Shown here piece by piece: positions 2,427-21,257 of a stretch of 21,687 nucleotides of DNA. Positions within the stretch are counted from its first letter, which is position 1, and each line of letters begins with the position of its first letter. A program made the position numbers and the translations under genes. The notes under the pieces are model-generated. The model saw nothing but the letters and a program-made list of their open reading frames with translations, was not told the origin of the DNA and ran no database searches. This stretch comes from DATKZS01 sp035527835 [NCBI: bacterium] (lineage in GTDB: Bacteria > RBG-13-61-14), in contig DATKZS010000106.1 in assembly GCA_035527835.1 (NCBI GenBank), positions 1 through 21,687 on the forward strand, read 5' to 3'.

Positions 2427-2438
2427 GGCTATTCCCCC

Positions 2439-2882: not shown

Positions 2883-2913
2883 ATCACTCCTCCTGTTTCC
2901 CGGTTTAATTTTC

Positions 2914-2927
2914 GGGGAAAACTCCCC
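2914..2927 (-). other. Small hairpin in the sat-aprB spacer
   Basis: On the coding strand GGGGA-GTTT-TCCCC forms a five-pair stem with a four-base loop, 20 bases upstream of the aprB binding site. It could act on mRNA processing or differential expression between sat and aprBA. No U-tract follows, so it is not a standard terminator. The spacer (2883-3009) also holds a perfect Shine-Dalgarno match (AAGGAGGTGA, 2973-2982) with no usable start codon behind it. Confidence 0.35.
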
Positions 2928-3009
2928 CGGCTAATTCGTCAAATGACTCAATCCCCGTTGACCTCTACTCGTTCACCTCCTTGCTGTGATTTCATCGAAC
3001 TTTTATTCC

Positions 3010-4230
3010 CTATCTCTTTATCTTTTTTTCCGCGTCGCCCGTGGCGTGGCCGTGCAGCTTGATCTCGACCTTTTCGTCCAGGTTCTGATAGTACTCCTGG
3101 AGGATCTTCCCCACCTCGGGACGCGAGAACTCAACCGGAAGCGGCTTGCCCTCCGAGAGCATCTTCCGCACCACCGTGCCCGAAAGCATCAGCCGGTCTT
3201 CCTTGCCGTGAGGGCAGGTCTTCATCGAGGCCATGCCCCCGCACTTGTTGCACCAGAACGTCCAGTCTATCTTCAGAGGCTTGGTCAGCAGGGCGTCCGG
3301 CGCGATCTCGTCGAAGATCTTCTGCGCGTCGAACGGACCGTAATAGTCGCCCACCCCCGCGTGGTCCCGCCCCACGATCAGGTGCGAGCACCCGTAATTC
3401 TGGCGGAACACCGCGTGCAACAGCGCTTCCTTCGGGCCCGCGTAACGCATCTCCAGCGGATACCCGCCCTGGATCACCGTGTTCTTCACGAAATAATTCT
3501 CCACCAGGGCGTCAATCGCCTTCACCCGCACGTCCGCCGGGATGTCCCCCGCCTTCAGCTTCCCGATCAGCTGGTGGATGTAAAGCCCGTCGCAGACCTC
3601 GACCGCGATCTTCGCCAGGAACTCGTGCGACCGGTGCATCGGGTTCCGAAGCTGCAACGCCGCGATCGTCTTCCAGCCCTTCTCCTCGAAGGCCTTCCGC
3701 GACTCCGCCGGCCGCTGGTAGATGCCCTTGAACTCCGTCGGATACGTGGACTCCGACAACACCTTCACCGGACCGCCGAGGTTGTACTTCGCCTGCTCCA
3801 TAACCTTCGCCACGCCCGGGTGCTCCTTGTCCGTCGTCCGGAACACCGACTGGCACTCGTGGGCCTTGTCAATCTCGTACTTGTCCGTGATCTTCATCGT
3901 CGCCATGAGCTCTTTGGATTCCTCGTCAACCAAAGCGACCTCGTCGCCCTTCTTCACCGACTCGTCGCCGGTCGAGCAGGTGATCGGGATCGGCCAGAAC
4001 ACCCCGCTCTTGAGCGTCATCTGGTCGCATACGCCCTTCCAGTCCGCCTGGTCCATGAAACCGTCCAGCGGAGTGAAAGCCCCGATGCCCAGCATGATCA
4101 GGTCCGAGGTTTCGCGGGAGGTGATCAAGAGCTGCTTCAAGCCCTTCGCCCGCTTCAGTTCGTCGTCCTTGGCCTTGCCTTCCAGCAACAGGCACTTCAG
4201 AGTCTTCGATCCATGAGGTGGTACCAGCAT
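3010..4230 (-). CDS. sat: Sulfate adenylyltransferase (ATP sulfurylase), dissimilatory type
   Basis: Sat joins sulfate and ATP to form APS and pyrophosphate, the activation step before APS reductase, in the cytoplasm. The 406-residue protein has the nucleotide-binding signature [11 protein letters not shown] (193-203) and the second active-site motif [14 protein letters not shown] (285-298). Near the end is a zinc-type set C327-x2-C330, C339 and H341, followed by SGTVVRKML (350-358). There is no APS kinase domain, which fits the single-domain enzyme of sulfate reducers. The ATG at 4230 has an AAAGGAG site eight bases upstream. It is first in the sat-aprB-aprA unit, so the promoter for all three probably lies upstream, in the region starting at 4231. 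Only the usual substitution of A by S in the HRSHE motif is seen, so the enzyme should be active. Confidence 0.97.
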
Positions 4231-7862: not shown

Positions 7863-8226
7863 TTATTCTTGATTGGGGGCAAAAAAAGTGTATAGCCGTG
7901 CTCAACAACGGGGTCGGAAGCGAACATTTTGGCGCGACGTTTCGTGGCCTGATTTGTGGGACAGAGCGGCCCGGGTTTCAGGCCGCGGGTGGCCTGGACG
8001 GTGGGACGCGGGAGGCCGGAGATTGGGCCAGCCGTGGTCCAGTTCAGGGGCTTCGCGGCCTGGGCCCTGGGCCTCAAAATTCAGGCCACGGGCGGCCAAC
8101 TGCCGGATTTGTTTGGAGACCGGGTCAAAAACAGGGAAAAATTTTGGGGAAAAAGGCTTGCGTGGCCTGAATCCGCCGCCATTGGTCAAGTCAAAAAATT
8201 CTTCAGCCGCGCCCATCATATCTTTC
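7863..8226. other. GGCC-rich stretch without a recognised gene
   Basis: About 360 bases separate the repeat clusters. Open frames cross it but none resembles a protein family. TTCAGGCCGCGGGTGGCC (7977-7994) and TTCAGGCCACGGGCGGCC (8080-8097) are near-identical direct repeats. ATTCAGGCCACG (8079-8090) and CGTGGCCTGAAT (8161-8172) form a perfect 12-bp inverted repeat 70 bases apart. A further inverted CGTGGCCTGA lies near 7943. It could be a structured RNA or a decayed repeat; nothing firmer can be said. Confidence 0.5.
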
Positions 8227-8265
8227 CTCAAGCCTCAAGCCCCAAGCCTCAAGTCCCAAGCCCTT
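8227..8265. repeat. Seven-base tandem repeat, CAAGCCT type
   Basis: Five to six tandem units of CAAGCCT/CAAGCCC/CAAGTCC run over 39 bases. They match the core units of the two larger heptad elements but lack the palindromic arms. It lies about 60 bases upstream of the carbamoyltransferase start. Confidence 0.75.
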
Positions 8266-8282
8266 GGCCCATGCCTCAGTGC

Positions 8283-8309
8283 TTGCAACCCGTCGTGTTG
8301 CCCTATATC
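8283..8309 (+). promoter_or_regulatory. Possible carbamoyltransferase promoter
   Basis: TTGCAA (8283-8288) and TATATC (8304-8309) each match four of six consensus bases, with a short 15-base spacer. It lies 20 bases upstream of the start codon, which makes a very short leader. The match is weak. Confidence 0.25.
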
Positions 8310-8328
8310 CTTTTTAGCGGAGGCAAAA

Positions 8329-10152
8329 ATGACCTCGATACTCGGCATCTCGGCTTTTTATCATGATTCGGCGGCGTGCCTGGTTAAGGACGGTGAGATC
8401 GTGGCGGCGGCGCAGGAGGAGAGGTTCACCCGGAAGAAGCACGACGCGGGGTTCCCGGAGAACGCGGTGGCGTATTGCCTTTCGGCGGCCGGGCTCAAGA
8501 TGGAGGAGCTGGATTACGTGGCGTTTTACGATAAGCCGTTCGTGAAGTTCGAGCGGCTCTTGAAGACGTATCTCGCTTACGCTCCGTTCGGGCTGCGCTC
8601 GTTTGTGATTGCGATTCCGGAGTGGATGGGCAAGAAGCTCTGGCTCAAGGAGCAGCTCCAGGAGCGGGCCGGGGACAAGGTGCCGATCCTGTTCCCGGAG
8701 CACCACGAGTCGCACGCGGCGTCGGCGTTTTTCCCGTCGCCGTTCGAGGAGGCGGCGTTCATCACGGTTGACGGGGTGGGGGAGTGGACGACCACGAGCT
8801 TCGGGACGGGCCGGGGCAACAGGATCGAGCTGATGCGGGAAATCAGGTTCCCTCACTCGCTGGGGCTTCTGTATTCGGCGTTCACCTATTTCACGGGGTT
8901 CAAGGTGAACTCGGGCGAATACAAGCTGATGGGGCTCGCGCCCTACGGCGAGCCCCGGTACGTGGACCTGATCAAAAAGGAGCTGGTTGACATCCGGGAC
9001 GACGGGTCGTTTCGGCTGAACCTGAAATACTTCGACTACATGGTCGGGCTCTACATGACCAACCGCAGGTTCGCGGAGCTGTTCGGCGGCCCGGCGCGGA
9101 AGCCCGAGACCAAGATCACGGAGCGGGAGATGGACCTGGCCCGGTCGGTGCAGGCGGTGACCGAAGAGATCATGATGAAGATGGCGCGCCACGTGCACAA
9201 GGTCACGGGCATGAAGAAGCTGTGCCTGGCCGGCGGCGTGGCGCTGAACTGCGTGGCCAACGGGCTGATCCTGCGGGAGGGCCCGTTCGAGGACATCTGG
9301 ATCCAGCCGGCGGCGGGCGACGCGGGGGGGGCGCTGGGCGCGGCGCTGTACTCGTGGTACCAGTACCTGGGCAACGGGCGATCGGCCACCCCGGACCGGC
9401 GCGACCGCCAGCGCGCGAGCTACCTGGGTCCGGCCTTCTCCGACGATGAGATCGAGTCGTTCCTCGAGGACAACGACATCCCCTATAAGAAGATCGAGCC
9501 CGGCGAGCTGGCGCGGGTCGCGGCCGGGCTGATCGCGGAGAGCAAGGTGGTGGGCTGGTTCCAGGGCCGCATGGAGTTCGGGCCGCGCGCGCTGGGCGCC
9601 CGCTCCATCATCGGCGACGCCCGCAGCCCGGAGATGCAGTCGGTGATGAACCTGAAGATCAAGTTCCGCGAGTCGTTTCGGCCGTTCGCGCCCACGGTGC
9701 TGGCGGACCGGGCGTGCGATTACTTTGACATCAGCTGCGAGTCGCCGTACATGCTGCTCACGGCCTACGTGCGCGACAAGTATAAAAAGCCCGTGCCGCC
9801 GGAGATGGACCAGGCGCGGGGCCTGGACAAGCTCAAGGTGCACCGCTCCGAGATCCCGGCCATCACGCACGTTGACTACTCGGCCCGGCTCCAGACCGTG
9901 AACCGCAACGACAACCGGCTTTATTACGACATGATCAAGGCGTTCGAGGACCTGACCGGGTGCCCCGTCATTATCAACACCAGCTTCAACGTGCGCGGCG
10001 AGCCCATCGTCTGCTCGCCCGAGCACGCCTGGCGCTGCTTCATGCGCACGCGCATGGACTACCTGGTCATGGGCAACATCCTGCTCGACAAGAAGGACAT
10101 GCCGGAGTGGGAAGAGACCGAGGACTGGGAAAGCGAGTTCCCGCTGGACTGA
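8329..10152 (+). CDS. Carbamoyltransferase, NodU/CmcH family
   Basis: This family moves a carbamoyl group from carbamoyl phosphate to hydroxyls of sugars, antibiotics or surface polysaccharides. The protein has 607 residues. The N-terminal Kae1-like ATP domain begins MTSILGISAFYHDSAACLV. It contains the metal-binding HHESHAASAFF (125-135), DGVGEW (149-154), YKLMGLAPYG and the nucleotide site CLAGGVALNCVANG with IQPAAGDAGGALG. The C-terminal domain carries GRMEFGPRALGARSIIGD, FRPFAPTVL and NTSFNVRGEPIV. All expected family motifs and the full length are present, so it should be active. I chose the ATG at 8329 because AGCGGAGG stands seven bases before it and the family's N-terminus starts there; the frame stays open upstream to 7873 but that part is repeat sequence. 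No sugar or antibiotic biosynthesis gene is adjacent, so its substrate is unknown. Confidence 0.93.
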   Translation: MTSILGISAFYHDSAACLVKDGEIVAAAQEERFTRKKHDAGFPENAVAYCLSAAGLKMEELDYVAFYDKPFVKFERLLKTYLAYAPFGLRSFVIAIPEWMGKKLWLKEQLQERAGDKVPILFPEHHESHAASAFFPSPFEEAAFITVDGVGEWTTTSFGTGRGNRIELMREIRFPHSLGLLYSAFTYFTGFKVNSGEYKLMGLAPYGEPRYVDLIKKELVDIRDDGSFRLNLKYFDYMVGLYMTNRRFAELFGGPARKPETKITEREMDLARSVQAVTEEIMMKMARHVHKVTGMKKLCLAGGVALNCVANGLILREGPFEDIWIQPAAGDAGGALGAALYSWYQYLGNGRSATPDRRDRQRASYLGPAFSDDEIESFLEDNDIPYKKIEPGELARVAAGLIAESKVVGWFQGRMEFGPRALGARSIIGDARSPEMQSVMNLKIKFRESFRPFAPTVLADRACDYFDISCESPYMLLTAYVRDKYKKPVPPEMDQARGLDKLKVHRSEIPAITHVDYSARLQTVNRNDNRLYYDMIKAFEDLTGCPVIINTSFNVRGEPIVCSPEHAWRCFMRTRMDYLVMGNILLDKKDMPEWEETEDWESEFPLD

Positions 10153-10169
10153 TCCGCTCTCCATAAATA

Positions 10170-10236
10170 AGGTGGGAGGCCGGCTCCGACGGGCGATCCC
10201 TTAAAGAGTCGCCGGCCGGAGGCCGCCTCCCACTTT
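10170..10236. terminator. Long hairpin between convergent genes
   Basis: GTGGGAGGC (10172-10180) pairs perfectly with GCCTCCCAC (10225-10233). Inside these arms, CGGCTCCGACGGGCGA pairs well with TCGCCGGCCGGAGGCC. The stem is flanked by AA on the left and TTTC on the right. Lying between the convergent carbamoyltransferase and giant-protein genes, it would suit a bidirectional terminator. The U-tract is weak, and it may instead be an interspersed palindromic repeat of a kind found in many genomes. Confidence 0.6.
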
Positions 10237-10252
10237 CAATTAACGGCCGCGG

Positions 10253-10830
10253 TCAGTTCCCGAAGGCCTGATAGCTGAACAGGCTGCCGCCCACGTCGCC
10301 ATGTCCCGAAAGTGCCCGGAAGGTGACGTCAAACCCCGAGGCGCTGATGTTGGAGATCCTGGTCGCCACGTATTCCTCGCTTCCGATCGGGCCGGCCAGC
10401 GGCGAGACCAGGACCTGGGGCGGACCCGTGAATCCGCGCTTGAAGCTGACGTGGACCGTAACGCTCACGGCGGGCGTGGCCACGTCCAAGGTCCTCGTGT
10501 CCATTTCCAGGCGGCCGTCGAGCAGGCCGTCGGCCTTGATGGCATAAGGGACGCTGGTGATGCGCGCGCGGGGTATCATCAGCTCGCCGTTCACCCTGAT
10601 CCTCAGGTAGAGCGGGACCGCGCCGAAAATGTCCGGGTCGAGCGGCGTCACGCTCCCCAGCAGCACGTTGTAAATGCCCTGGCTCACCAGCACGTTGGCC
10701 TGCGTCTCCTGCCAGAGCAGCGTGCCGCCGGTGGGCGCGTCGAAAATCTGGAAGATGATGTCCACGGTGTCGGAGACGGACACGCCGGCGGCGTCGGTGA
10801 GCCGGCCCTGGTAGTTGATGAGGTGGGCGG
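10253..10830 (-). other. C-terminal domain of the giant protein
   Basis: About 190 residues. The first half (INYQGRLTDAAGVSVSDTV through PRARITSVPYAIKAD) is a pattern I know from the C-termini of many exported proteins of Deltaproteobacteria. The second half (VHVSFKRGFTGPPQVLVSPL to the end, FSYQAFGN) resembles the H-type lectin fold. A carbohydrate-binding or trimerising role is inferred. Confidence 0.5.
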
Positions 10831-13800
10831 GCGAGCTCGGGAAGTCGAACGGGTCGGTGGGGTCGGTGCCGGAGCTCACCTCGATGCCGTCGTTGTAGCC
10901 GTCGCCGTCGGTGTCGGGATTCAGCGGGTCGGTGGAGAACAGGATGACCTCGTCCCGGTCGGAGAGGCCGTCGCCGTCAGTGTCGGGATTGGCCGGGTCC
11001 GTGCCCAGGGTGAAGATTTCATAATCGTCGTTAAAGAGATCGCCGTCGGTGTCCGCGTTGCAGGGATCGGTGCCGTAACTGAACTCGATAATGTTGGCCA
11101 GCGCGTCGAGGTCAGGGTCCGCTAACGCATCGGCGACGGAGGCGTCGGTGCAGGTGTAGAGGTCCTCCCAGACGTCGGGCATACTGTCGCCGTCGCGGTC
11201 GGTAAGGGTGTTGCCGCCCGGCTCCGCGCCGTCGGGGATGCCGTCGCCGTCGGTGTCCGGGTCGAGCGGGTTGGTAGAGTTCACGAAAATCTCGCTCCAG
11301 TCGGTGAGCCCGTCGCCGTCGCTGTCGCTCAGCCAGGGATCGGTGAAATAAGTTCCGACCTCGATTAAATCACTCAATCCGTCTCCGTCCGAGTCCGCGG
11401 CGTTGGGATTAGTGCCGTAGATCATGACCTCGTCCGCGTCGTCAAGCCCGTCGCCGTCGCTGTCGGTGGCCAGCGGATCGGTGTGCGAAGTCTGCACCTC
11501 AAAGGCGTCATTGAGCCCCTCGCCGTCGGAGTCAGGGTTGGTGGGATCGGTGCCGTAGGTGTTGACTTCGGCCCCATCAAAGAGTCCCTCGCCGTCGGTG
11601 TCCGGGTTGCACGGGTCGGTGCCGTGGGCAAACTCGCCGGTGTTGTTGAGCCCGTCGGAGTCGTTGTCGGCCAGGGAGTCGCCGCTCAGGGGATCGAGTC
11701 CGCAGGAAACGTATAACACCTCCCAGTCGTCGGGCAGGCCGTCGCCGTCGGGGTCGGAGGAGCAGGGATCGGTGCCCAGGTTGTACTCGGCGAGGTTGGT
11801 GAGCCCGTCGCCGTCGCTGTCGGCTCCGGCGTCAGGAGAGAGGGGATTGCAGCAGGCGGAATGGGCGGCTTCCCATCCGTCGGGCAGAAGGTCGTCGTCG
11901 GTGTCCCAGTCGGCGGGGTCGGTGCCCAGGGCGGCATCCTGGGCGATGGCGAGGCCGTCGCCGTCGGCGTCAATACCGACGCGGGTGAAATAAATCTGCT
12001 GGACGCCGTCGCGGGAGTCGCGCCAGGCGATGCCGAACTCGGAGCCGGTCCAGGCCATGGTCGGCTCGTTCTTGGCGGAAGCGACGGTGGTGACGGGAGC
12101 GCCCGTCCCCAGGGTGGAGCCATCTATGGCCAGGCGCATGAAGTAGATCTCAATGCCCTCGCGCCAGGCCACTCCGAGCTCCGATCCGGCGCGGACGAGC
12201 CGGGAGGATTGCGAGAAGGCCCACGTGTTCGTGAGCCTGGTTTCGGCGCCGATGGCCGTGCCGTCCGGGCCGATGCGGCGGAAGAAGAGCTCCCAATTGG
12301 TGGTGCGGGCGTCCTCCCAGATCACCGCGTACTCTGTCCCGGTCCAGGCCAGCGACGGATAATTGGACCCATTGCCATCGTCGCTCAGCCGGACCTCGGG
12401 GCCCACCGTGGCCCCATCCGCAGTCAGCCTCCGGAAATAGATCTCGTAGTTGCCGTCCCGGTTGTCATACCAGGCCGTCCCGAACTCGTTATAGGGCCAG
12501 CCGCTCCAAGCGAGAGAAGGAAAATTAGAACTGCCCGCTGCCTGGGTGGCCCGGGTTTCCGTGGGCAGGACGGTGTTCCCGTCGGCCGCCAGCACCGAGT
12601 CATAAATCTCGTTGTCGCCGTCGCGGCTGTCGTGCCAGGCCACGCCGTAGCGCGAGCCGGTCCAGATCACCGTGGGTCCGGAGGAGACTGAAGCATTGCT
12701 GGAGAGGCGCAGGTCCGGGCCCACGGTCGAGCCGGCAAGGTCCAGACGGTTGAAGAAGATCTCATAGTTTCCATACCTGTTGTCATACCAGGCGATCCCG
12801 TATTCCGATCCCGACCAGGCGAGCGTGGGGAGCTCGTTGTTGCTGGGGCTATAAGTCAGGCGGAGGTTCAGTCCCACGGTCGAGCCGTCCACCGCGAGCC
12901 GGCTGAAATAGAGCTCGCGGTTGCCGGTGCGGGTGTCGCGCCAAACCAGGCCGTACTCGCTCCCGCTCCAGGCCAGGTTCGGGTAATAGGCCTCGCCGCC
13001 TCCGATGGTCACCCGAACCTCCGGGCCCAGGGGCAAGTTGGACGGCGCGATGCGGGCATCGAAGGGCTGGGCGCCCCATAAGACCTCATTGCCGTCAAGC
13101 GCGCCGTCATCGTCGGCGTCGGGGTCATTGGGGTCGGTGCCGGTGTCGGCCAGGTCAATAAAGACGCCGGTGTCGGTCTCGACCTGGTCGGGCAGGCCGT
13201 CGGCGTCGGAGTCCGGGGTGGGGGAGTTGGGATCGGTGGCGAAGGAGTTGACCTCGAGGCCGTCGGAGAAGCCGTCGCCGTCGGTGTCGGTCGCGCAGGG
13301 GTCGGTGCTGTTCCCCCATTCCGCGAGGTTCATGAGGCCGTCGCCATCCGCGTCGGAGAAGGCGTCGTTGCCCGCGGGGTTCAGGCAGGAGTATGCCTCC
13401 TCCCACCAGTCGGGCATGCCGTCGCCTTCCGCGTCGGTGAAGACGCAGGGGTCGTCGCCGCGGAGGAACTCGGCGAGGTTGGAGATGCGGTCGCCGTCCG
13501 GGTCGCCGGTGGTATCGGCGGCCAGCGGATTGAGGCCGCAGGCCGATCCCTGGATCACCTCGTAGCCGTCGCTCATGCCGTCATCGTCGGTGTCCCAGTC
13601 CGCGGGGTCGGTGCCGGCCGGCGGCTCGAGCACGTCCACCAGTCCGTCGCCGTCGCTGTCCGGGCCCAGGCGGGCGAAATAAACCTCGTAGGCGCCGGAG
13701 CGGGTGTCGTGCCAGGCCATGCCGAACTCGGACCCGGTCCAGACCAGGTCGGGCCAGCCCGAGGTCCCCGGGGCGAAGGTGATGCGTTGCTCGGCGCCGA

Positions 13801-16800
13801 TCCGCTCGCCCTGCTCGTCCAAGTAAGTGAAGTAGATCTCGTAGTTGCCGTCGCGGGAATCGTTCCAGCAGATCCCGTACTGGGAGCCGGTCCAGGCCAT
13901 GGCGGGCATGGATGACTCGGAGGGGGTTGAGCTGATCCGGAGGTTCGGACCCAGCGCCCATAACATGTCGTCGGCATGGACGAAGTAGGTCTCGTAGACC
14001 CCGCCCGCGCGGTTGTCGTTCCAGGCGATGGCGAACTCGGAGCCGTTCCAGGCGAGCGTGGGGATCAAGGAGTCGGCGGAGTCGGAGGTCATCCTGACAT
14101 CGCCCATGTATCGGGATCCGTTCGGATTGAGCAGGGTGGTGTAAATCTCGTTGTTTGAATTCCGGTTGTCGTTCCAGGCCAAACCGTAATACGTTCCATC
14201 CCAGGCCAGGGAGGCGTAGCGCGAGGCGGAGGTGTCGTAGGTGATGCGCCGGAAGTTGCCGACGGTGGAGCCGTCGGCGGCGATCTGCGCGGTCAGGATC
14301 TCGAGGTTGGAGCTGCCGTAGTCGGCCTCCCAGGCGGCCACGAAACCCGTCTCGCCCCAGCTCAGGGAGGGCCAATGGTTTGCGGTCTGGCTGGAGCCGA
14401 GGCGCTGGAAAGAAAGATCACCCGAGCCGTCCGCGGCGATGCGGGCCATGTAGATGTAGGCCGCGGGCCAGGCGCCCTCCTGTTCCCAGGCCACGCCGAA
14501 CTCGGAGCCGGTCCAGACCAGCGACGGGTACAGGGAATCATAGGAGCTGAACACCACCCTCAGGTCCGGTCCCAGCGTATCCCCCACGGCCGAGAGCCGG
14601 GTAAAGTATATTTCGTAATAGTATAAACCGTCGCGGGGGTCTTCCCAGGCCAGCCCGAACTCCGAGCCGGTCCAGGCCAGGTCGGGGTCGCCCGCGCCCC
14701 CGCCATCCCAGGTGACGCGCCGGGCGCTGCCGATCACGGCGTAGCCCGGGGCGATGTTTCCGTTAAAGGGATTGGAGCCGCCGATGATCTCGTAATAATC
14801 GTTGACCGCGTCGCCGTCGGTGTCCGGGTTGCCGGGATCGGTGCCGGTGTCGGCGAAGCCGTTGAACACGCCGGTGTTCGTCTCCACCGCGTCGGGCAGG
14901 CCGTCGCCGTCGGTGTCGGCATCGGGAACGAGGGGGTCGGTGAGGAACAGGAAAAGCTCGTCGTAGTCGCTGAGGCCATCGCCGTCGGTGTCGGGGTCGA
15001 GGGGATCGGTTCCGTAGGTCAAGGCCTCGTCGCCGTCGCTGATGCCGTCGTTGTCGGAGTCGGGGTCGCAGGGATCGGTGAGGCCGTCGTACTCCTCAAG
15101 GTTGGACAGGCCGTCGCTGTCCGCATCGCTGAGCGCGTCCGCGGCCAGGGGTTGCACGCCGCACGACGAATGGGCCACTTCCCAGCCGTCGGGCATGAGG
15201 TCGTCATCCGAGTCCCAGTCGTTCGGCGAGGTGATGGTCTCGAGGCCGTCGTTCAGGCCGTCGCCGTCGGAGTCCGGACCGAAATACATCATATATGGCT
15301 TATAGGAGCCGTCGCGGTTGTCAAGCCAGCCGGCCGCGAACCTGGATCCGGTCCAGGCCAGGGACGGTGTGGAGCTGCCCACCGTGGTGCCGTCCGAAAG
15401 CCGGATCGGACCATATAACGGCCCCCCCGCGGCCGTGCCTAATGACGCCACTCCAAAATACAGAAAGGGAAAGTTGAAGATGCCCGTCCCGAATCCCAGC
15501 AGCGAGCCGCCCCGCACCACGCTGGCTTCGTAGATATATTCCACGCTGGAGCCGGAGACAACCATCGGCTGGGCCGGGGCCAGCGGCGATCCATCCGCGC
15601 CCAGGCGCAAATACTTCACCTCCCATAAGCCATCAAGCAGCTCGATGTAGGTCAGCCCGTACTCGGAGCCGGTCCAGATCAGGGAAGGCCCAACGGATCC
15701 CGCGGTGTCTCCCCCGGTTATTTGAACTTCGCCGCCCACCACGGTCCCGCCGGCGCTGACCCTGGTGAAGTAAATCTCCGAGGTCCCGGTCCTGTCATCG
15801 TACCAGGCCACCCCGAACTCCGAGCCGGTCCAGGCGGCCGCGGGAGAGATGGCGTTGGTGGCATCATGACTGAGCCTGAGCTCGGGTCCGATGACCGTGT
15901 TTCCATCGGCGTTGATCCTGGCGAAATAGATCTCAATCGGCCCGTCCCGGTTATCGGGCCAGGCCAGGCCGAACTCGGTGCCGGTCCAGGCCAGGCTCGC
16001 GCGGTTGTTGCTGTAGTATTTGTAATACGTAGTGGATACCACGAGAGGCGGGCCAGCGGTGGAGCCGTCAAGGCCGAAGGTGCCCAGGCGGACCTCGTAG
16101 AGGTTGTCGAAGCCATGGGCGTATCCGAACTCCGAGCCGGTCCAGAGCAGGCTCAGCTCATCCGGTGTTCCCGAGTTGCCGGCCACCATGAGGTTCGGGC
16201 CCAGGTTGGAAAAGTCGGCGCTCAGCCGGGTGAAAATTAAATCGCGATTGCCCGCCAGACCCGTCCACATGGCGCCGAACTCCGAGCCGGTCCATGCAAT
16301 TCTTAATTGATTGGTATAGTCACCATTTATCTGGCGTTCCGGCCCTTCCGCTTTCACGCTCGGAGTGATGCGGTCATCCGAGGGGTTCGAGCCGGCAAAA
16401 GCCTCGGCGCCGTCCCCGACCCCGTCATCGTCCGAGTCCGGGTCCCAGGGGTCGGTGCCGTAGACGTTGATTTCCTGGCCGTCGTTGAGGCCGTCGTAGT
16501 CGCTGTCGGGGTTGAGGGGGTCGGTGCCCCAGACGATGGCCTCCAGATAGTCGGTGAGGGCGTCGCCGTCGGTGTCGGGGTTGCAGGGGTCGGTCCAGAC
16601 GGTGAACTCGCCGAGGTTGTCCAGCAAGTCGGAATCCGGGTCGGCGGTGGTGCTCCCCGCGAGCACCGGGTCTATGCCGGTACAGGAGCGGTAATTGTAC
16701 TCCCAGCCGTCGCCCATGCCGTCGTTGTCGGTGTCCGTGTCGCAGGGGTCGGCGCCGATCGTGTATTCGTCCAGGTTGGCGAGTCCGTCCCCCTCGGCGT

Positions 16801-17827
16801 CGTCCAGGGAGTCGTCGGCCAGCGGATTGAGCCCGCAGCCGGCGTAAGTGATCTCCCAGCCATCATCCATGCCGTCGCCGTCGGTATCCGAGTTGCAGGG
16901 ACTGGTCCCGGCCGCGTCCTCCTCGCGGTTTTCGAGCCCGTCGGTGTCGGCGTCGGCCAGCGAGTCGCCGGCCAGGAGCGGATCAATCCCGGCGCAGGAG
17001 CTGTATTTGTCCTCCCACCCGTCACTCATGCCGTCGCCGTCGGTGTCGGGATCGCACGGATTGGTCTCGGTCGCGTCCACCACGCCGTCAACATCCAGGT
17101 CCTCGCCCGCCAGGCAAACGTTAAACACCGACCGCGGGCCGTCGCACGACCCGTCGCCGTCGGTGTCGGCCTGGCTGGGGCTCGTGCACATGGTGTTCTC
17201 CAACACGTCGGGGAGGCCGTCGGCGTCGGAGTCCGGCGGCACGAACATGACCACGTCGTCATGATCGTTATACGCTCCGGGCAGGCAAGCCACGACCCCG
17301 CCTCCGCGCACGAAGCTCAGCCTCACCGCCGTGTAGCCGGGGGACGTCTGGAGGGTGAAGTTAAGGGTCAGCACCCTGGTCCCGGCCCCCGTACAAGCGA
17401 CGTTGCCGCGATAGTTCCAGCTCGGGGACGTGGCCGAGGGGGAGTTGTAGACGAAAAGGCGGTCGTTGACCCAGTTGGCGGTATCGCAATATACCGTGGC
17501 CTGGAGCTGGATGGTGTCGTTGGGCTGAAAATAGAGCGAGCTTAGGTCCGTGAGCACAAAACTGTTTAACGATTCGTTAGTGTTGAAAGTGCCGGAGGTC
17601 CCGTCCGCGCAGGGGCTTTGCAGCAAGGTGTTGGGCTGGTGCGGCTCCGCCGCGCCGATAATGTTGTCGCGGCTGTTGACCAGGGTCGAAGGCACGCTGC
17701 ACGGGCTCTGGCCCGTCGAACAATAGGGGGTCAGGTAGGCGCCGTTAAAGCCCGCGGTCTCGGCCGCCGCCCGGCCGGCGACGATGATCGCCGCCAGCGC
17801 CACCAACGCCATAATAATCCTGCGCAT
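10253..17827 (-). CDS. Giant secreted protein: three beta-propellers alternating with thrombospondin type 3 calcium blocks
   Basis: The product has 2524 residues and begins with a signal peptide (MRRIIMALVALAAIIVAGRA, cleavage likely after residues AAA near 22). The mature order is as follows: a beta-rich N-terminal domain (about 25-190); type 3 block A (195-481); propeller 1 (494-848); block B (849-1016); propeller 2 (1033-1386); block C (1387-1587); propeller 3 (1601-1950); block D (1950-2327); and a C-terminal part (2332-2524). The last part opens with INYQGRLTDAAGV and ends in a segment that resembles an H-type lectin fold. Each propeller has seven repeats of about 50 residues centred on LAWTGSEFGLAW.D.RDG..EIYF. 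The type 3 blocks hold about 40 DxDxDG calcium motifs. The ATG at 17827 has AAGGAGGAAATC before it and gives the signal peptide. No anchor or sorting motif is seen. It is probably a surface or released adhesion or binding protein; its ligand is unknown. Confidence 0.92.
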   Translation of the reverse strand: MRRIIMALVALAAIIVAGRAAAETAGFNGAYLTPYCSTGQSPCSVPSTLVNSRDNIIGAAEPHQPNTLLQSPCADGTSGTFNTNESLNSFVLTDLSSLYFQPNDTIQLQATVYCDTANWVNDRLFVYNSPSATSPSWNYRGNVACTGAGTRVLTLNFTLQTSPGYTAVRLSFVRGGGVVACLPGAYNDHDDVVMFVPPDSDADGLPDVLENTMCTSPSQADTDGDGSCDGPRSVFNVCLAGEDLDVDGVVDATETNPCDPDTDGDGMSDGWEDKYSSCAGIDPLLAGDSLADADTDGLENREEDAAGTSPCNSDTDGDGMDDGWEITYAGCGLNPLADDSLDDAEGDGLANLDEYTIGADPCDTDTDNDGMGDGWEYNYRSCTGIDPVLAGSTTADPDSDLLDNLGEFTVWTDPCNPDTDGDALTDYLEAIVWGTDPLNPDSDYDGLNDGQEINVYGTDPWDPDSDDDGVGDGAEAFAGSNPSDDRITPSVKAEGPERQINGDYTNQLRIAWTGSEFGAMWTGLAGNRDLIFTRLSADFSNLGPNLMVAGNSGTPDELSLLWTGSEFGYAHGFDNLYEVRLGTFGLDGSTAGPPLVVSTTYYKYYSNNRASLAWTGTEFGLAWPDNRDGPIEIYFARINADGNTVIGPELRLSHDATNAISPAAAWTGSEFGVAWYDDRTGTSEIYFTRVSAGGTVVGGEVQITGGDTAGSVGPSLIWTGSEYGLTYIELLDGLWEVKYLRLGADGSPLAPAQPMVVSGSSVEYIYEASVVRGGSLLGFGTGIFNFPFLYFGVASLGTAAGGPLYGPIRLSDGTTVGSSTPSLAWTGSRFAAGWLDNRDGSYKPYMMYFGPDSDGDGLNDGLETITSPNDWDSDDDLMPDGWEVAHSSCGVQPLAADALSDADSDGLSNLEEYDGLTDPCDPDSDNDGISDGDEALTYGTDPLDPDTDGDGLSDYDELFLFLTDPLVPDADTDGDGLPDAVETNTGVFNGFADTGTDPGNPDTDGDAVNDYYEIIGGSNPFNGNIAPGYAVIGSARRVTWDGGGAGDPDLAWTGSEFGLAWEDPRDGLYYYEIYFTRLSAVGDTLGPDLRVVFSSYDSLYPSLVWTGSEFGVAWEQEGAWPAAYIYMARIAADGSGDLSFQRLGSSQTANHWPSLSWGETGFVAAWEADYGSSNLEILTAQIAADGSTVGNFRRITYDTSASRYASLAWDGTYYGLAWNDNRNSNNEIYTTLLNPNGSRYMGDVRMTSDSADSLIPTLAWNGSEFAIAWNDNRAGGVYETYFVHADDMLWALGPNLRISSTPSESSMPAMAWTGSQYGICWNDSRDGNYEIYFTYLDEQGERIGAEQRITFAPGTSGWPDLVWTGSEFGMAWHDTRSGAYEVYFARLGPDSDGDGLVDVLEPPAGTDPADWDTDDDGMSDGYEVIQGSACGLNPLAADTTGDPDGDRISNLAEFLRGDDPCVFTDAEGDGMPDWWEEAYSCLNPAGNDAFSDADGDGLMNLAEWGNSTDPCATDTDGDGFSDGLEVNSFATDPNSPTPDSDADGLPDQVETDTGVFIDLADTGTDPNDPDADDDGALDGNEVLWGAQPFDARIAPSNLPLGPEVRVTIGGGEAYYPNLAWSGSEYGLVWRDTRTGNRELYFSRLAVDGSTVGLNLRLTYSPSNNELPTLAWSGSEYGIAWYDNRYGNYEIFFNRLDLAGSTVGPDLRLSSNASVSSGPTVIWTGSRYGVAWHDSRDGDNEIYDSVLAADGNTVLPTETRATQAAGSSNFPSLAWSGWPYNEFGTAWYDNRDGNYEIYFRRLTADGATVGPEVRLSDDGNGSNYPSLAWTGTEYAVIWEDARTTNWELFFRRIGPDGTAIGAETRLTNTWAFSQSSRLVRAGSELGVAWREGIEIYFMRLAIDGSTLGTGAPVTTVASAKNEPTMAWTGSEFGIAWRDSRDGVQQIYFTRVGIDADGDGLAIAQDAALGTDPADWDTDDDLLPDGWEAAHSACCNPLSPDAGADSDGDGLTNLAEYNLGTDPCSSDPDGDGLPDDWEVLYVSCGLDPLSGDSLADNDSDGLNNTGEFAHGTDPCNPDTDGEGLFDGAEVNTYGTDPTNPDSDGEGLNDAFEVQTSHTDPLATDSDGDGLDDADEVMIYGTNPNAADSDGDGLSDLIEVGTYFTDPWLSDSDGDGLTDWSEIFVNSTNPLDPDTDGDGIPDGAEPGGNTLTDRDGDSMPDVWEDLYTCTDASVADALADPDLDALANIIEFSYGTDPCNADTDGDLFNDDYEIFTLGTDPANPDTDGDGLSDRDEVILFSTDPLNPDTDGDGYNDGIEVSSGTDPTDPFDFPSSPAHLINYQGRLTDAAGVSVSDTVDIIFQIFDAPTGGTLLWQETQANVLVSQGIYNVLLGSVTPLDPDIFGAVPLYLRIRVNGELMIPRARITSVPYAIKADGLLDGRLEMDTRTLDVATPAVSVTVHVSFKRGFTGPPQVLVSPLAGPIGSEEYVATRISNISASGFDVTFRALSGHGDVGGSLFSYQAFGN
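10845..11977 (-). repeat. Thrombospondin type 3 block D
   Basis: Longest calcium block of the giant gene. It has about 17 DxDxDG motifs, mostly in 18-20 residue steps of the form TDPxxPDTDGDGLxDxxEV. At DNA level the unit gives the recurring GCCGTCGCCGTCGGTGTC seen on the plus strand. Confidence 0.85.
11978..13025 (-). repeat. Beta-propeller 3 (seven WTGSEFG-type repeats)
   Basis: Seven repeats of about 50 residues. Blade cores read LAWSGSEYGLVW, LAWSGSEYGIAW, VIWTGSRYGVAW, a variant with a short insertion (LAWSGWPYNEFGTAW), LAWTGTEYAVIW, a degenerate sixth (LVRAGSELGVAW) and MAWTGSEFGIAW. The last blade runs straight into block D. Confidence 0.85.
13065..13667 (-). repeat. Thrombospondin type 3 block C
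   Basis: About eight DxDxDG motifs, including longer cysteine-bearing units of the form CGLNPLAAD...DPC. It ends with GAQPFDARIAPS, the counterpart of the ending of block B. Confidence 0.85.
13668..14728 (-). repeat. Beta-propeller 2 (seven WTGSEFG-type repeats)
   Basis: Seven repeats of about 50 residues, with cores LAWTGSEFGLAW, LVWTGSEFGVAW, LSWGETGFVAAW, LAWDGTYYGLAW, LAWNGSEFAIAW, MAWTGSQYGICW and LVWTGSEFGMAW. The seventh runs directly into GPDSDGDG of block C. Confidence 0.85.
14780..15281 (-). repeat. Thrombospondin type 3 block B
   Basis: About seven DxDxDG motifs, closing with GGSNPFNGNIAPG before propeller 2. Its second half (ETNTGVFNGFADTGTDP) parallels the same part of block C (ETDTGVFIDLADTGTDP), showing that propeller plus block was duplicated as one module. 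Confidence 0.85.
15282..16345 (-). repeat. Beta-propeller 1 (seven WTGSEFG-type repeats)
   Basis: Seven repeats with cores IAWTGSEFGAMW, LLWTGSEFGYAH, LAWTGTEFGLAW, AAWTGSEFGVAW, LIWTGSEYGLTY, a strongly diverged sixth (VVRGGSLLGFGT) and LAWTGSRFAAGW. The sixth blade is the weakest here, as in propeller 3. Confidence 0.8.
16385..17242 (-). repeat. Thrombospondin type 3 block A
   Basis: About twelve DxDxDG motifs. Three consecutive long units of about 50 residues contain DGWE, a cysteine, GIDP or GLNP, and then DPC, so a disulfide-bearing variant of the repeat is mixed with the short 18-20 residue form. Confidence 0.85.
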
Positions 17828-17871
17828 GATTTCCTCCTTGGGTCTCTGGGCTTTTCCAAAGTTTCGCCGGC

Positions 17872-17896
17872 GCAAATCCATACTGTGAGGATTTGC
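17872..17896 (-). other. Hairpin in the 5' leader of the giant gene
   Basis: GCAAATCC (17872-17879) and GGATTTGC (17889-17896) form a perfect eight-pair stem with a nine-base loop, about 45-70 bases upstream of the start codon. It may affect translation or message stability. No known riboswitch signature was recognised around it. Confidence 0.45.
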
Positions 17897-18009
17897 TCTA
17901 CAGCCCTCCCCCGGCCCGGAACTCCGAGTTGGACTGGCGAATAAATTTTTATTTTCAGCAACCGATAGCGGTGATAAGTAATAAAGGCGCCCCCTGATAT
18001 GATATAACA

Positions 18010-18039
18010 AGCTTAACCGTTCAGGTAGCTGGTTGTCAA
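18010..18039 (-). promoter_or_regulatory. Possible promoter of the giant gene
   Basis: Perfect TTGACA on the minus strand at 18034-18039, followed by a modest -10 candidate TAAGCT (18010-18015) at an 18-base spacing. It lies just past the DUF4276 stop and would give a leader of roughly 175 bases containing the hairpin at 17872-17896. Confidence 0.35.
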
Positions 18040-18058: not shown

Positions 18059-18715
18059 TCAGTTGGGAGAGGAGAAGCTTTCGAGAAAGCCCACGAAGGG
18101 CGCGAAGCACTGGGGGCAGCGTCGGATAATCAGGTCAAGGCAGCTCGCCTTTAAGATTTGAGGTGCATCGGATTTTTCCTGGTATTTTTTCCCATGCCGC
18201 CGGAAAAGCTCTTCTACGAGTTTCTTTGGATTGTTTTCATGGTCCTGGTCTTCAACAGGCTCACGCCATGTCACGGGCAGTTCTTTGATTCCCAGAAAAG
18301 ATTGCAGCTCCTCACGGGCCGCGAGCAACAAAACTTCCAGATCATATTTAAAACAGTGAACGTGGAAACGGCCCAGGAAAGGATCAGAGGAGGTTATTCC
18401 TCTCTTTCTCAAGGCTTCTTGAACCCTGCCGTACAAGAGATCATTCAACTCCTTTACGGTTTCATTCGGCCCTCCCGCGTTCTTCGGATATAGATCAGGA
18501 AGAAGAACGACATGGGCGTTAGAGTCATTGATCAGAATATCAGCGGCCCGCTCCGGTCCTTTTTGCAGCAGAGCGGTCTTGCCCTGCCAGTGATTATTAA
18601 AACAGATCCCGATCCCCTTTTCCGCGGCCTCTTTGATTTTTTCGGACAAAAGGACCTCCATTGCGGACTTGTCGCTTGGTCCTTCAACATAAACCACGAG
18701 CCGGCATGGCATCAC
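18059..18715 (-). CDS. DUF4276 (TOPRIM-like) protein, partner of the upstream ATPase
   Basis: The 218-residue product starts with a beta strand and acidic loop, LVVYVEGPSDKSAMEVLL, with E11 in the place of the TOPRIM glutamate. It goes on to VVLLPDLYPKN, with D74 where the second acidic site is expected, and HVHCFKYDLEVLLLA with D125 and E127. The C-terminal half fits the DUF4276 pattern that ends in a cysteine-containing helix (DLIIRRCPQCFAPFVGFLE). DUF4276 proteins are often encoded beside RecF/OLD-like ATPases. Here the start codon overlaps the ATPase stop by four bases (18712-18715), a strong sign of coupled expression. The role is inferred: a nuclease or effector controlled by the ATPase, comparable to AriB in PARIS. 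Family assignment is moderately secure; activity is unknown. Confidence 0.75.
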   Translation of the reverse strand: MMPCRLVVYVEGPSDKSAMEVLLSEKIKEAAEKGIGICFNNHWQGKTALLQKGPERAADILINDSNAHVVLLPDLYPKNAGGPNETVKELNDLLYGRVQEALRKRGITSSDPFLGRFHVHCFKYDLEVLLLAAREELQSFLGIKELPVTWREPVEDQDHENNPKKLVEELFRRHGKKYQEKSDAPQILKASCLDLIIRRCPQCFAPFVGFLESFSSPN

Positions 18716-19881
18716 GAGAAGGTCTCCAGTTCCTCGCTCCTATGCATGGCCTCAATATCGCTCTGGCCGAAATCCTCCAGAAAAGCGTTAAGGACCTTGG
18801 AGCTTGCCGGCTTTTTCGCCACTACCTCTCCATTCTCCTTGGCCATCACCGTGATGTTCTGAAAAGGAAATTGCGCGAGCATATAGGAAGAGTGAGTCGT
18901 TATAAAGACCTGAGTCCGTTCCGTGGCCTGCTCCAAGAGTCCGGCAAGGAGCGGGAGGGCGCGGGGGTGCAGGCCGACCTCCGGTTCATCAATGCAGATA
19001 AGCGGGGGAGGGTTGGGATGAACGCATAGAGTGGCCCAGATGATGAAATTCAAAACGCCGTCGGAAAGATCGGCCATGGTTAATTCGCTCTTGATGCCTT
19101 CTTCCGTCCAGAAAGCAATAACTTCCCCAGGCCCGCCCCGCGCCCGGATTTTAAGCCCCCGAAATCCGGGGATCACCTGTTTGATGTAACCCTGGAGAGC
19201 GTCATAGATGTCGGCGTGATCGGTAAAAAGGTTGAAGAGTATCGCACTAATATTGCCGGCGTCCTCACGCAACTCCGCATGTTGCTCAATTGGAATGCTG
19301 CGGCGCATAGTTGATCGGTCAATTTCAAATGAACTATAAAATCCCCAAGACCCAATATAATCAGAGAGAAAATTTATAGCTTTGTTTTTCTCGCTGGGGA
19401 ATTGAAGTCCCAATTGGTTAGGTCCAATATTATAGCCTCTGTAAGTACGAATATCGCCTTCAAATGCCCAATCAGGATTACGATTAACCAAGCGGTCGTA
19501 GTTTATATTATCCATCCTTTTCCAGTGAGGGCATGCGATTCCCTCTTTATTTATAATGATTTTTCCAATTGGACCCTTCAATTCCCCTTCATACAAAATA
19601 CCCAAGCCGTTTCCGTTAACAAACTGCAGAGACCATGAGAAGAAATCACCTTCTGATTTGTTTGATTTATTAAACACCTCCTGGCCCAAGAAGCCCGTTA
19701 TTATGCCCGGGGGGATTTTATCTTTCACGCCGTCCCGGAGGAACCTGAGAAAGTCAAAAAGGCTGGTCTTTCCAGTCCCGTTGGCCCCGACGAAGACCTC
19801 GAACTCCGAGAAGTCGGCGGAGAAGTCGCGGAAGCATTTGAAGCCTTTGATGTTGATGGAGGTGATGCGAGGGAAATCCAT
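18712..19881 (-). CDS. OLD/RecF-like AAA ATPase (AAA15/AAA21)
   Basis: This is an ABC-type ATPase of the SMC/RecF/OLD group, 389 residues, cytoplasmic. It begins with the typical strand ITSINIKGFKCFRDF, then Walker A GANGTGKTS (32-40). The signature is LSDGVLNF (272-279), Walker B is LICIDEPE (294-301) followed by VGLHP, and the switch histidine is H330 in TTHSSYML. There is no long coiled coil. The ATG at 19881 is preceded by GGGAGG seven bases away. It overlaps the DUF4276 gene by ATGA. Its middle part (about 19320-19690) is clearly more AT-rich than the neighbouring genes, which suggests horizontal transfer. Such pairs are typical of defence islands; by analogy the ATPase senses or holds in check the effector. 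It may be co-transcribed with the ExeA-like gene 68 bases upstream, but I think it is a separate unit. Confidence 0.88.
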   Translation of the reverse strand: MDFPRITSINIKGFKCFRDFSADFSEFEVFVGANGTGKTSLFDFLRFLRDGVKDKIPPGIITGFLGQEVFNKSNKSEGDFFSWSLQFVNGNGLGILYEGELKGPIGKIIINKEGIACPHWKRMDNINYDRLVNRNPDWAFEGDIRTYRGYNIGPNQLGLQFPSEKNKAINFLSDYIGSWGFYSSFEIDRSTMRRSIPIEQHAELREDAGNISAILFNLFTDHADIYDALQGYIKQVIPGFRGLKIRARGGPGEVIAFWTEEGIKSELTMADLSDGVLNFIIWATLCVHPNPPPLICIDEPEVGLHPRALPLLAGLLEQATERTQVFITTHSSYMLAQFPFQNITVMAKENGEVVAKKPASSKVLNAFLEDFGQSDIEAMHRSEELETFS

Positions 19882-19949: not shown

Positions 19950-21257
19950 TCACTTGTCCTCCAGGTCGTCCAGCATCTCATCAATGGCGTCATCCTCGCG
20001 GCCCTGTTTTTTGGGCTCGGGCTTGTCGGTGAGGCCGTTGAACATGGCGTCAATGTCGTCGGGGTTGGCCCGGGTCCGGGCGCCGGCGGAGGGCGCGGGC
20101 TCGAACTCGGGCGGCGGCTCGGTGGGGACCGGGGGAATGGCGGGCACTTCGTAGGCCTCGGCCTCGGTCACGGGCTCGGGTTCCATGTCGTAACCGCGTC
20201 CGATGGATGGCTGGCGGCGGGCGGCCAGTCCCATGTCCACCTCGGTATCGGAATCTTCCGCGGGCTCGATGCTGACGCCTTCCGGGAATTCGTCGTCCTC
20301 ATATTCCTGCTCGTAGGCGGGTTGGGCCTTGACCGGCCGGCGTCCGGGCGGGGGCTGGCGCGGGTCCTGGACCCGGCCGGCGCCGGGACCGCGGAGCACG
20401 TCGGCGGGGCCTCCGCGCTGGGGGCGGCGGGCGGTTTTGGGCATGGCGGCGAGGCCCAGGTCCATGGCCACGGCCTGGACCAAATCGGGCTCGACGAATT
20501 TTTTCTTGAGCAGGTATCCCTCGAACAGGCTGTTGTCGCAGATGGTGTTGATGAGGCGGGGGATGCCGCGCGAATAATGGTGGATCAGCTTGGCGGCCTC
20601 GGAGTGGAAGAGCTGGGCCTTGGCGCCGGCCAGGCGGAGGCGGTGGGTGATGTAGCCGTCGGTGGACTCGAGGTTGAATGATTCGAGCTTGCACTTGAGG
20701 GCGACGCGCTGGGCCAGGGGCTCGTCGAGGTGCAGGTATTCCTCGAACTCGGGCAGGCCGAAGAAGACGAAGTTGATGAGCTTGGACTCGGGGACTTCGA
20801 GGTTGAGCAGGCCTCGGAACTCCTCCATGATCTCGCGGGTGTGGAGCATCTGGGCCTCGTCAATCAGGACCACGGCCTTCTTGCCCTGCTCGTGGAGCTC
20901 GACCAGGCGGGAGTAGAGCTGGTTCAGGAGCTTCAGCTTCTCCGGGGCCGGGTCCTCGACCCCGAGCTGGCGCGCGATACGGGAGAGGAGCCAGTCCGCG
21001 GTGATGCCGGAATGGATGATGACGAGCAGGGCCGACTCGTACTCCTCCTCGGGCAGGTTGTCCAACATGCGGCGGGCCAGGGTGGTCTTGCCGGTGCCCA
21101 GCTCGCCGATGAGCACGGCCAGTCCCTTCATGGTGTCCACCGCGTACATGAGCCGGACCAGGGCGCGCTGGTGCTGGGCGGAGTTGTAATAGAACTTGCT
21201 CACCGGCGCCGAGGAGAACGGCTCCTGCTCCAGGCCGTAAAAATCAAGGTAATCCAT
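19950..21257 (-). CDS. ExeA/GspA-like AAA ATPase with long disordered tail
   Basis: The 435-residue protein starts MDYLDFYGLEQEPFSSAPVS, the classic opening of ExeA/GspA/MshM-type ATPases. It has Walker A GELGTGKTT (51-59), Walker B VVLIDEAQML (129-138) and the sensor-2 segment GIPRLINTICDNSL (231-244). The ATPase ends near residue 270. The remaining 165 residues are rich in P, E, D and R and look disordered. They close with two similar acidic motifs, DDIDAMFNGLTDK (about 400-412) and DDAIDEMLDDLEDK (422-435). Members of this family help assemble secretion or pilus structures through the cell wall, or act beside exopolysaccharide export. No peptidoglycan-binding domain or membrane segment is seen here. 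The ATG at 21257 has GGGAGG eight bases before it. No secretion genes are in the window, so the exact machine is open. Confidence 0.88.
   Translation of the reverse strand: MDYLDFYGLEQEPFSSAPVSKFYYNSAQHQRALVRLMYAVDTMKGLAVLIGELGTGKTTLARRMLDNLPEEEYESALLVIIHSGITADWLLSRIARQLGVEDPAPEKLKLLNQLYSRLVELHEQGKKAVVLIDEAQMLHTREIMEEFRGLLNLEVPESKLINFVFFGLPEFEEYLHLDEPLAQRVALKCKLESFNLESTDGYITHRLRLAGAKAQLFHSEAAKLIHHYSRGIPRLINTICDNSLFEGYLLKKKFVEPDLVQAVAMDLGLAAMPKTARRPQRGGPADVLRGPGAGRVQDPRQPPPGRRPVKAQPAYEQEYEDDEFPEGVSIEPAEDSDTEVDMGLAARRQPSIGRGYDMEPEPVTEAEAYEVPAIPPVPTEPPPEFEPAPSAGARTRANPDDIDAMFNGLTDKPEPKKQGREDDAIDEMLDDLEDK

Follow-up and report, generated by a model that had tools for sequence, protein, structure and literature searches.

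The product of a giant gene in DATKZS01 sp035527835, a bacterium of the GTDB lineage RBG-13-61-14 (assembly GCA_035527835.1), very likely folds, as judged from structural models, into three seven-bladed propeller heads joined by spacers of the calcium-binding type. The gene lies on the minus strand of contig DATKZS010000106.1, of which positions 1–21,687 were analysed (hereafter, the window, 21,687 nucleotides), in an open frame at window positions 10253–18010 that is uninterrupted over 7.7 kb. Translation most likely starts from the ATG at position 17827, which gives a product of 2524 amino acids (aa; positions 17827–10253); the residue numbers used here refer to the translation of the full frame (2585 residues), which has 61 more residues upstream of this start. 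From the N- to the C-terminus, the protein consists of a putative signal peptide, a domain of approximately 175 aa, four stalks (0–3) alternating with three propellers (1–3), with stalk 0 first and the longest one, stalk 3, last, and finally a MAT_N-like domain and an H-type lectin domain (Table 1). With a probability of roughly 0.6, we consider it to be an adhesin or matrix scaffold that is secreted, depends on calcium, and acts through several heads outside the cell.

Blades, propeller folds, and stalks

An earlier reading of this DNA, made without database searches (the sequence-only reading), had described 21 copies of a repeat in exactly three groups of seven, and the blade anchors bore this out, falling into 7 + 7 + 7: at residues 572, 622, 674, 726, 778, 831, and 885 in group 1; at 1112, 1165, 1216, 1269, 1320, 1372, and 1423 in group 2; and at 1680, 1731, 1782, 1834, 1888, 1938, and 1986 in group 3. 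The spacing from blade to blade was 48–54 residues, corresponding to a blade of about 50 residues. In a held-out test, a profile of the blades in two groups was run on the third, with 200 shuffles per group (600 in total) as the control. The profile recovered 20 of the 21 blades (6/7, 7/7, and 7/7 for groups 1, 2, and 3), each at 9.3 bits or more, whereas the top shuffle scores were 2.7, 5.7, and 4.2 bits, respectively; the only undetected blade was the divergent blade 6 of group 1. The blades shared 35% pairwise identity on average and 65% at most, and the best-conserved positions over 443 distinct blades (two W, G, D, R, and G) were those common to blades generally.

Structure prediction in two AlphaFold jobs, each with 28 aligned rows, covered all three groups and yielded propellers in each case. 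Job 1 comprised propeller 2, stalk 2, and propeller 3, and job 2 comprised the N-terminal domain, stalk 0, and propeller 1; the predicted local distance difference test score (pLDDT) was approximately 95 for propeller 3 and mainly 70 to 97 for propellers 1 and 2. For propellers 3 and 1, the closest solved fold was the C-terminal propeller of CylK, a Friedel-Crafts alkylating enzyme (PDB 7fh6, 7ron), which is described as seven-bladed in the accessible portion of PMC8916777. Propeller 3 superposed on it with a Z score of 42.8 over 338 residues (1.9 Å, 10% identity) and propeller 1 with a Z score of 38 over 337–338 residues (2.4–2.5 Å), and the runner-up protein reached Z scores of 31.8 and 30.3, respectively. 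An alignment such as that of 338 of approximately 350 residues on a seven-bladed ring is what ring closure predicts. In propeller 2, the strands fell into seven sets (DSSP of the model, sorted by eye), and the model (range 1–373) matched chain 8xi2_T, which we take to be a seven-bladed WD40 protein, with a Z score of 28.5 over 289 residues (2.8 Å). The proposition that each group forms a closed seven-bladed propeller is therefore supported by the models of all three groups and by the CylK superposition of propellers 3 and 1. Furthermore, an extra strand precedes every group (GPERQI, SARRVT, and GPEVRVT), and the last blade of every group lacks a fourth strand, suggesting that each ring is closed by the first strand completing the last blade. 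Such sharing of a strand between the ends of the domain is the usual mode of propeller closure. Further fold matches included virginiamycin B lyase, rhamnose-glucuronate lyase, and glycoside hydrolases, and TolB was also among the Foldseek matches.

All three groups pass straight into thrombospondin type 3 (TSP3) repeats, as the sequence-only reading had claimed (GPDSDGDG, GPDSDGDG, and GIDADGDG at the three transitions), and the Pfam model TSP3_bac (PF18884) scored 209.2 bits against a cut-off of 25, with 27 stretches. The ending GxxPFxxxIAP, proposed to be common to the stalks that follow groups 1 and 2, was found in both (GSNPFNGNIAP and GAQPFDARIAP), and the stalk ahead of group 1 closes with the kindred ending GSNPSDDRITP. 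Part of stalk 3 matched a solved biofilm-associated surface protein (7c7r; E-value of 1.6e-4), and the model of stalk 0 had a pLDDT of approximately 80 over model residues 241–390. The TSP3 stalks, with their aspartate motifs, may bind calcium. When the stalk cysteines were paired by eye, 18 of the 23 could be matched at distances of 29–33 residues, giving nine pairs, and these cysteines, approximately 30 residues apart, may form disulfides.

The N-terminal domain ahead of stalk 0, a fourth long TSP3 stalk, and the C-terminal module of a MAT_N-like and an H-type lectin domain go beyond the account given by the earlier reading. A Pfam scan of the N-terminal domain revealed nothing beyond DUF769 at an E-value of 0.17, and AlphaFold predicted its structure without confidence; its relatives share frames with propellers at four loci of the relatives described below (L003, L013, L079, and L080; E-values of 2e-42 to 6e-34). 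At the other end of the protein, the MAT_N-like match covers residues 2395–2456 of the 2585, and relatives of this domain were found in six of ten genomes. H_lectin scored 31.1 bits against a cut-off of 24 when the C-terminal 91 residues were scanned alone and 23.9 bits, marginally below the cut-off, in the whole-protein scan. For the lectin domain, a match to malate dehydrogenase (E-value of 0.56) was dismissed as chance.

H-type lectins, which bind sugars of the galactose type, assemble as trimers or hexamers. A trimer is plausible for the C-terminal module by analogy both with such lectins and with the mosaic adhesive trimers (MAT proteins) of Bdellovibrio, the first domain of which resembles the lectin-adjacent domain. 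In the accessible portion of PMC10769870, the MAT proteins are described as trimeric adhesive multi-domain fibres. Meanwhile, at another locus (L115, positions 1405–2721), a MAT_N-like domain is followed by a MopE motif and then by an FGE-sulfatase (sulfatase-modifying factor) domain, an arrangement indicating that the MAT_N-like module accompanies enzyme-like domains too.

Relatives and origin of the array

When the three propellers were searched against the genomes of 84,980 species, 27 loci were obtained. Nine were in the metagenome-assembled genome (MAG) RBG_13_61_14 and eight in MAG Meg19_46_Bin_197, both titled Deltaproteobacteria, and the remainder came from Acidobacteria, myxobacterial, Bdellovibrio, and other records. 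The expectation of the sequence-only reading that homologues would have blade counts in multiples of seven held for near relatives and failed for a six-bladed sister (L016) and for irregular distant groups. All groups were taken in for these counts. At loci L001–L024, exactly seven blades were detected in 23 of the 28 groups, six in three, and five in two; the sevens rose to 24 with gap-inferred blades, and one of the sixes (L012) showed a divergent seventh blade by eye. A wider near set comprised 55 groups; at most four blades were detected in 13 of them, and exactly seven in 31 of the remaining 42. Among 40 groups from distant genomes, where the matches were weaker, the counts ranged from 1 to 16, with seven detected blades in 1/40 and, when gap-inferred blades were added, in 6/40. 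In near relatives, a propeller thus usually has seven blades, but not invariably. The six-bladed sister at L016 (positions 9239–10921) is a natural one, in which a MAT_N-like domain precedes a propeller whose six blades are nearly alike.

MAG RBG_13_61_14 contained 13 propellers at an E-value of 1e-20 or better. Nine of these showed seven detected blades, two more were sevens by eye (the first group of L010, and L080), L016 had six clear blades, and L079 showed six detected blades plus a stretch of unknown residues. At an E-value of 0.001, the propeller profile had any match in 18 of the 60 genomes around this MAG (itself included) and none in the other 42, the best match outside it scoring 79 bits; two of the three genomes searched from its phylum matched the propeller at 1e-20. 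At four of its loci (L003, L004, L010, and L013), propellers lead into TSP3 or similar calcium motifs. L010 (4768 aa) and L013 (1881 aa), with frames that are both open at the locus end, have two propellers each together with TSP3_bac repeats. Acidobacteria bacterium Mor1 encodes a protein with three propellers (285, 269, and 135 bits; L140, minus strand, 1790 aa; the same protein in L021) and another with two (205 and 77 bits; L138, 1112 aa), and the repeats that join them are of the MopE metal-binding type (by Pfam in L021 and by eye in L138), not TSP3. Many other relatives are shorter frames with a propeller at the end, including small single-propeller proteins that end at the propeller and lack the DxDxDGxxD motif (L001, L005, L007, L008, and L009). 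The partner domains were also varied: a papain protease and Lectin_like in L002, LVIVD repeats in L003, and Kelch repeats and Lectin_C (a C-type lectin domain) in L010. Judging from these sequences, propellers on calcium-type strings appear to recur across bacterial lineages, with the stalk type varying by lineage.

It is very improbable that the repeat array was misassembled and the blade number consequently meaningless. Although the gene is repetitive, its frame is open over its whole length and seven-blade groups recur in other genomes; moreover, reads from blades as diverged as these are not easily collapsed or multiplied. As to how the array arose, blade identity across the groups hardly differed between the same position (0.357) and different positions (0.349), giving hardly any sign of whole-propeller duplication. 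From the blade groups, 42 with at least six detected blades and a span of 290–400 residues were retained for alignment: alignment A2 comprised 26 of the 42, and A3 comprised 23 plus two longer rows (L003 and L013), each with one further group, all the rows of A2 and A3 coming from the 27 loci. Alignment A4 comprised 32 of the 42, leaving out nine with six detected blades and L018, which is cut by the contig end. The propeller tree was mostly unresolved, with 4 of 32 inner branches well supported and the bootstrap not settled; it placed propellers 1 and 3 together (94/90) and propeller 2 elsewhere. A stretch of 207 bases close to the end of both stalk 1 and stalk 2 recurs with 71% similarity at a 1704-base spacing, which favours, without settling, duplication of the stalk end and propeller together for those two.

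Proposed function and its alternatives

Computation supports the reading frame, the blade number, the propeller fold, the TSP3 repeats, and the lectin domain, and we infer secretion, calcium binding, disulfides, head spacing, ligands, a trimer, and the location. In the mechanism that we propose, the protein would be secreted and extracellular calcium would fill the TSP3 repeats, whereupon the spacers would turn compact and keep the propellers apart, perhaps clamped by the cysteine pairs. The three heads and both chain ends would then give many weak contacts that sum up, and the lectin, which probably recognizes a sugar, may assemble three chains. Several findings are consistent with an adhesin: relatives L002 and L010 combine the same propellers with lectin-type domains, a string-of-propellers plan also occurs in L010, L013, and Acidobacteria bacterium Mor1, stalk 3 resembles a biofilm-associated surface protein, and the protein ends in a MAT_N-like domain and an H_lectin domain that exceeds its cut-off when scanned alone.

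Other findings weigh against this interpretation. The confidence of the models as wholes was middling (mean pLDDT of 78.2 and predicted template modelling score [pTM] of 0.57 in job 1; 68.6 and 0.50 in job 2), blade 6 of propeller 1 was modelled with three long strands and a short fourth at a low pLDDT of 54–80, and stalk 2 was modelled poorly (pLDDT of approximately 45), so that a straight stalk is conjectural. Some like-folded propellers are enzymes (CylK, virginiamycin B lyase, and glycoside hydrolases). Pfam and NCBIfam scans revealed no cell anchor, so the protein may be freely secreted, and the neighbouring genes carry no hint of adhesion.

The enzyme-like folds raise the alternative that the propellers are catalytic, making the protein a multi-headed secreted enzyme (such as a polysaccharide lyase or hydrolase) with TSP3 repeats as spacers, and the papain-type protease beside a propeller in L002 points in the same direction as the matches to CylK, the two lyases, and the glycoside hydrolases. 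We regard this as quite unlikely, since the positions conserved over the 443 blades are those expected of a framework, the propeller profiles match no solved enzyme propeller by sequence, and a single conserved active site was not seen, although no systematic search was made. It is also unlikely that the protein is a structural component of a surface layer or sheath, in which the propellers would pack together and the chain would be a building block rather than a receptor. The great length and regularity of the protein would suit such a role, as would TIGR04275 (beta_prop_Msarc), which we take from its name to represent repeats of Methanosarcina surface proteins. This was the named blade repeat matched most often (14 of the 35 propellers at an E-value of 0.001 or below), with scores of 39.7 bits for propeller 3 alone and 20.6 bits for the whole protein against a cut-off of 85. 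However, several relatives are the small single-propeller proteins without the DxDxDGxxD motif, and a lectin end on a giant protein also argues against a building block.

The adhesin or scaffold reading can be extended, tentatively and with considerable doubt, to a whole class of polyvalent adhesins of giant size strung on calcium stalks. A single, as yet unnamed seven-bladed family would be threaded two or three times on interchangeable stalks, of the TSP3 type in the window lineage and of the MopE type in Acidobacteria, and the lectin module of the window protein would gather three chains into nine heads, forming one calcium-switched device. The propeller family is outside all Pfam propeller models, and the design recurs in bacteria known mainly from metagenomes. 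If the proposed function is true, such proteins amount to ready-made multivalent binders that calcium can switch, through which it could be tested how these bacteria cling to particles, matrix, or one another.

The neighbouring genes are included in Table 1. The order Sat-AprB-AprA, in which AprA and AprB are presumably the sulfur genes of those names, is kept in MAG RBG_13_61_14 (G001), with 62.7%, 81.7%, and 81.8% identity. Given the AprA identity, the window probably derives from a relative of this MAG. The carbamoyltransferase gene lies end to end with the propeller gene; its relative in the same MAG (72% identity) has a different neighbour, not the propeller gene, so the neighbourhood offers no functional clue. 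For the AAA_21 ATPase and the DUF4276 protein, the best PADLOC matches were the candidate defence proteins HEC-01A (E-value of 4e-56, best of 128 families) and HEC-01B (E-value of 1.2e-7), respectively. The AAA_22 ATPase presumably resembles ExeA.

Table 1. Parts of the propeller protein and neighbouring genes, in window coordinates
Feature	Position	Strand	Basis
Signal peptide MRRIIMALVALAAIIVAGRAAA	17762..17827	(-)	By eye from translation; lipobox not seen
N-terminal domain, ~175 aa	17237..17761	(-)	Without significant Pfam match
Stalk 0, TSP3 repeats, 14 overlapping DxDxD motifs, ten cysteines	16346..17236	(-)	Pfam, motif count
Propeller 1, seven blades (blade 6 divergent)	15275..16345	(-)	Blade anchors, held-out profile, AlphaFold, fold match
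Stalk 1, TSP3 repeats, end GSNPFNGNIAP	14732..15274	(-)	Pfam, motif count
Propeller 2, seven blades	13661..14731	(-)	Blade anchors, held-out profile, AlphaFold
Stalk 2, TSP3 repeats, end GAQPFDARIAP	13031..13660	(-)	Pfam, motif count; low model confidence
Propeller 3, seven blades	11972..13030	(-)	Blade anchors, held-out profile, AlphaFold (pLDDT ~95), fold match
Stalk 3, longest TSP3 stretch, ~377 aa	10841..11971	(-)	Pfam, motif count
MAT_N-like domain (INYQGRL...SVPYAIKA)	10511..10840	(-)	28.7 bits, below model cut-off of 60
H-type lectin domain, C-terminus	10256..10510	(-)	Pfam PF09458
Sat, AprB, AprA, in that order	531-4230	(-)	Sat by Pfam
Carbamoyltransferase (Carbam_trans_N, _C)	7873-10152	(+)	Pfam
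AAA_21 ATPase and overlapping DUF4276 protein	18059-19881	(-)	Pfam, PADLOC
AAA_22 ATPase, long acidic proline-rich tail	19950-21257	(-)	Pfam and translation

Comparison with known systems

At an E-value of 0.001, no Pfam family matched propeller 3, and the matches over the 35 propellers were scattered, the commonest being SMN_Tudor (4/35, propeller 3 not among them), with DUF5122 in 1/35. An SMN_Tudor identity was rejected: L001 (37 bits) and L003 (30 bits) exceeded the cut-off of 22.7, yet no individual stretch passed, and the scores were taken as chance matches to blade strands added up. DUF5122, a propeller model, scored 13.5 bits in the window protein, under its cut-off of 27, and none of the Pfam propeller models fits the window blades. 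The TolB model TIGR02800 matched 7 of the 35 propellers at an E-value of 0.001, again without propeller 3; TolB has six blades. Sequence-profile searches for solved structures gave no convincing match for the propellers.

By fold, the closest known system is CylK. Like the window protein with its predicted calcium-binding stalks, CylK has a propeller fused to a calcium-binding domain, and calcium lies at each of its blade junctions, according to the accessible portion of PMC8916777. However, CylK is a one-propeller enzyme with only approximately 10% identity to the window propellers, and the profile searches of the propeller listed no CylK chain. Furthermore, its calcium domain is an N-terminal RTX-like beta-roll, whereas no RTX-like N-terminal domain was found in the window protein, for which the Pfam scan (E-values up to 10) listed just TSP3_bac, H_lectin, and DUF5122. 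Long bacterial TSP3 runs are shared with the myxobacterial surface proteins CglD and MtsD of NCBIfam, but the window protein scored 221.5 against a cut-off of 400 for CglD and 113.4 against 800 for MtsD; the best CglD stretch lay within stalk 3, and the MtsD stretch began where propeller 3 meets stalk 3 and continued along stalk 3. The Bdellovibrio MAT proteins resemble the window protein in combining a MAT_N-type domain with a C-terminal lectin tip. In the MATs, however, MAT_N directly follows the signal peptide, whereas in the window protein, it is near the C-terminus, behind the propellers and TSP3 repeats.

Highly repetitive propellers that grew through blade amplification, some of them in arrays predicted as more than one propeller, are described in the accessible portion of Pereira and Lupas (2022, PMC9218822), and the word "thrombospondin" is absent from the main text of that paper. 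The window blades differ from these in that they have diverged, occur in exact sevens, and have calcium repeats between the propellers. The two Mor1 proteins are closer in plan, with three members of this propeller family in one chain, two in the other, and metal-binding-type repeats between them, although these are of the MopE type rather than TSP3. The sequence-only reading knew of no named family with exactly this plan, and in keeping with this, no description of three exact seven-bladed heads on TSP3 repeats was found in the accessible portions of the open-access literature searched, PMC12045341 included. Each element (propeller, TSP3 stalk, and lectin tip) was known before, and it is their combination in the window protein that appears new.

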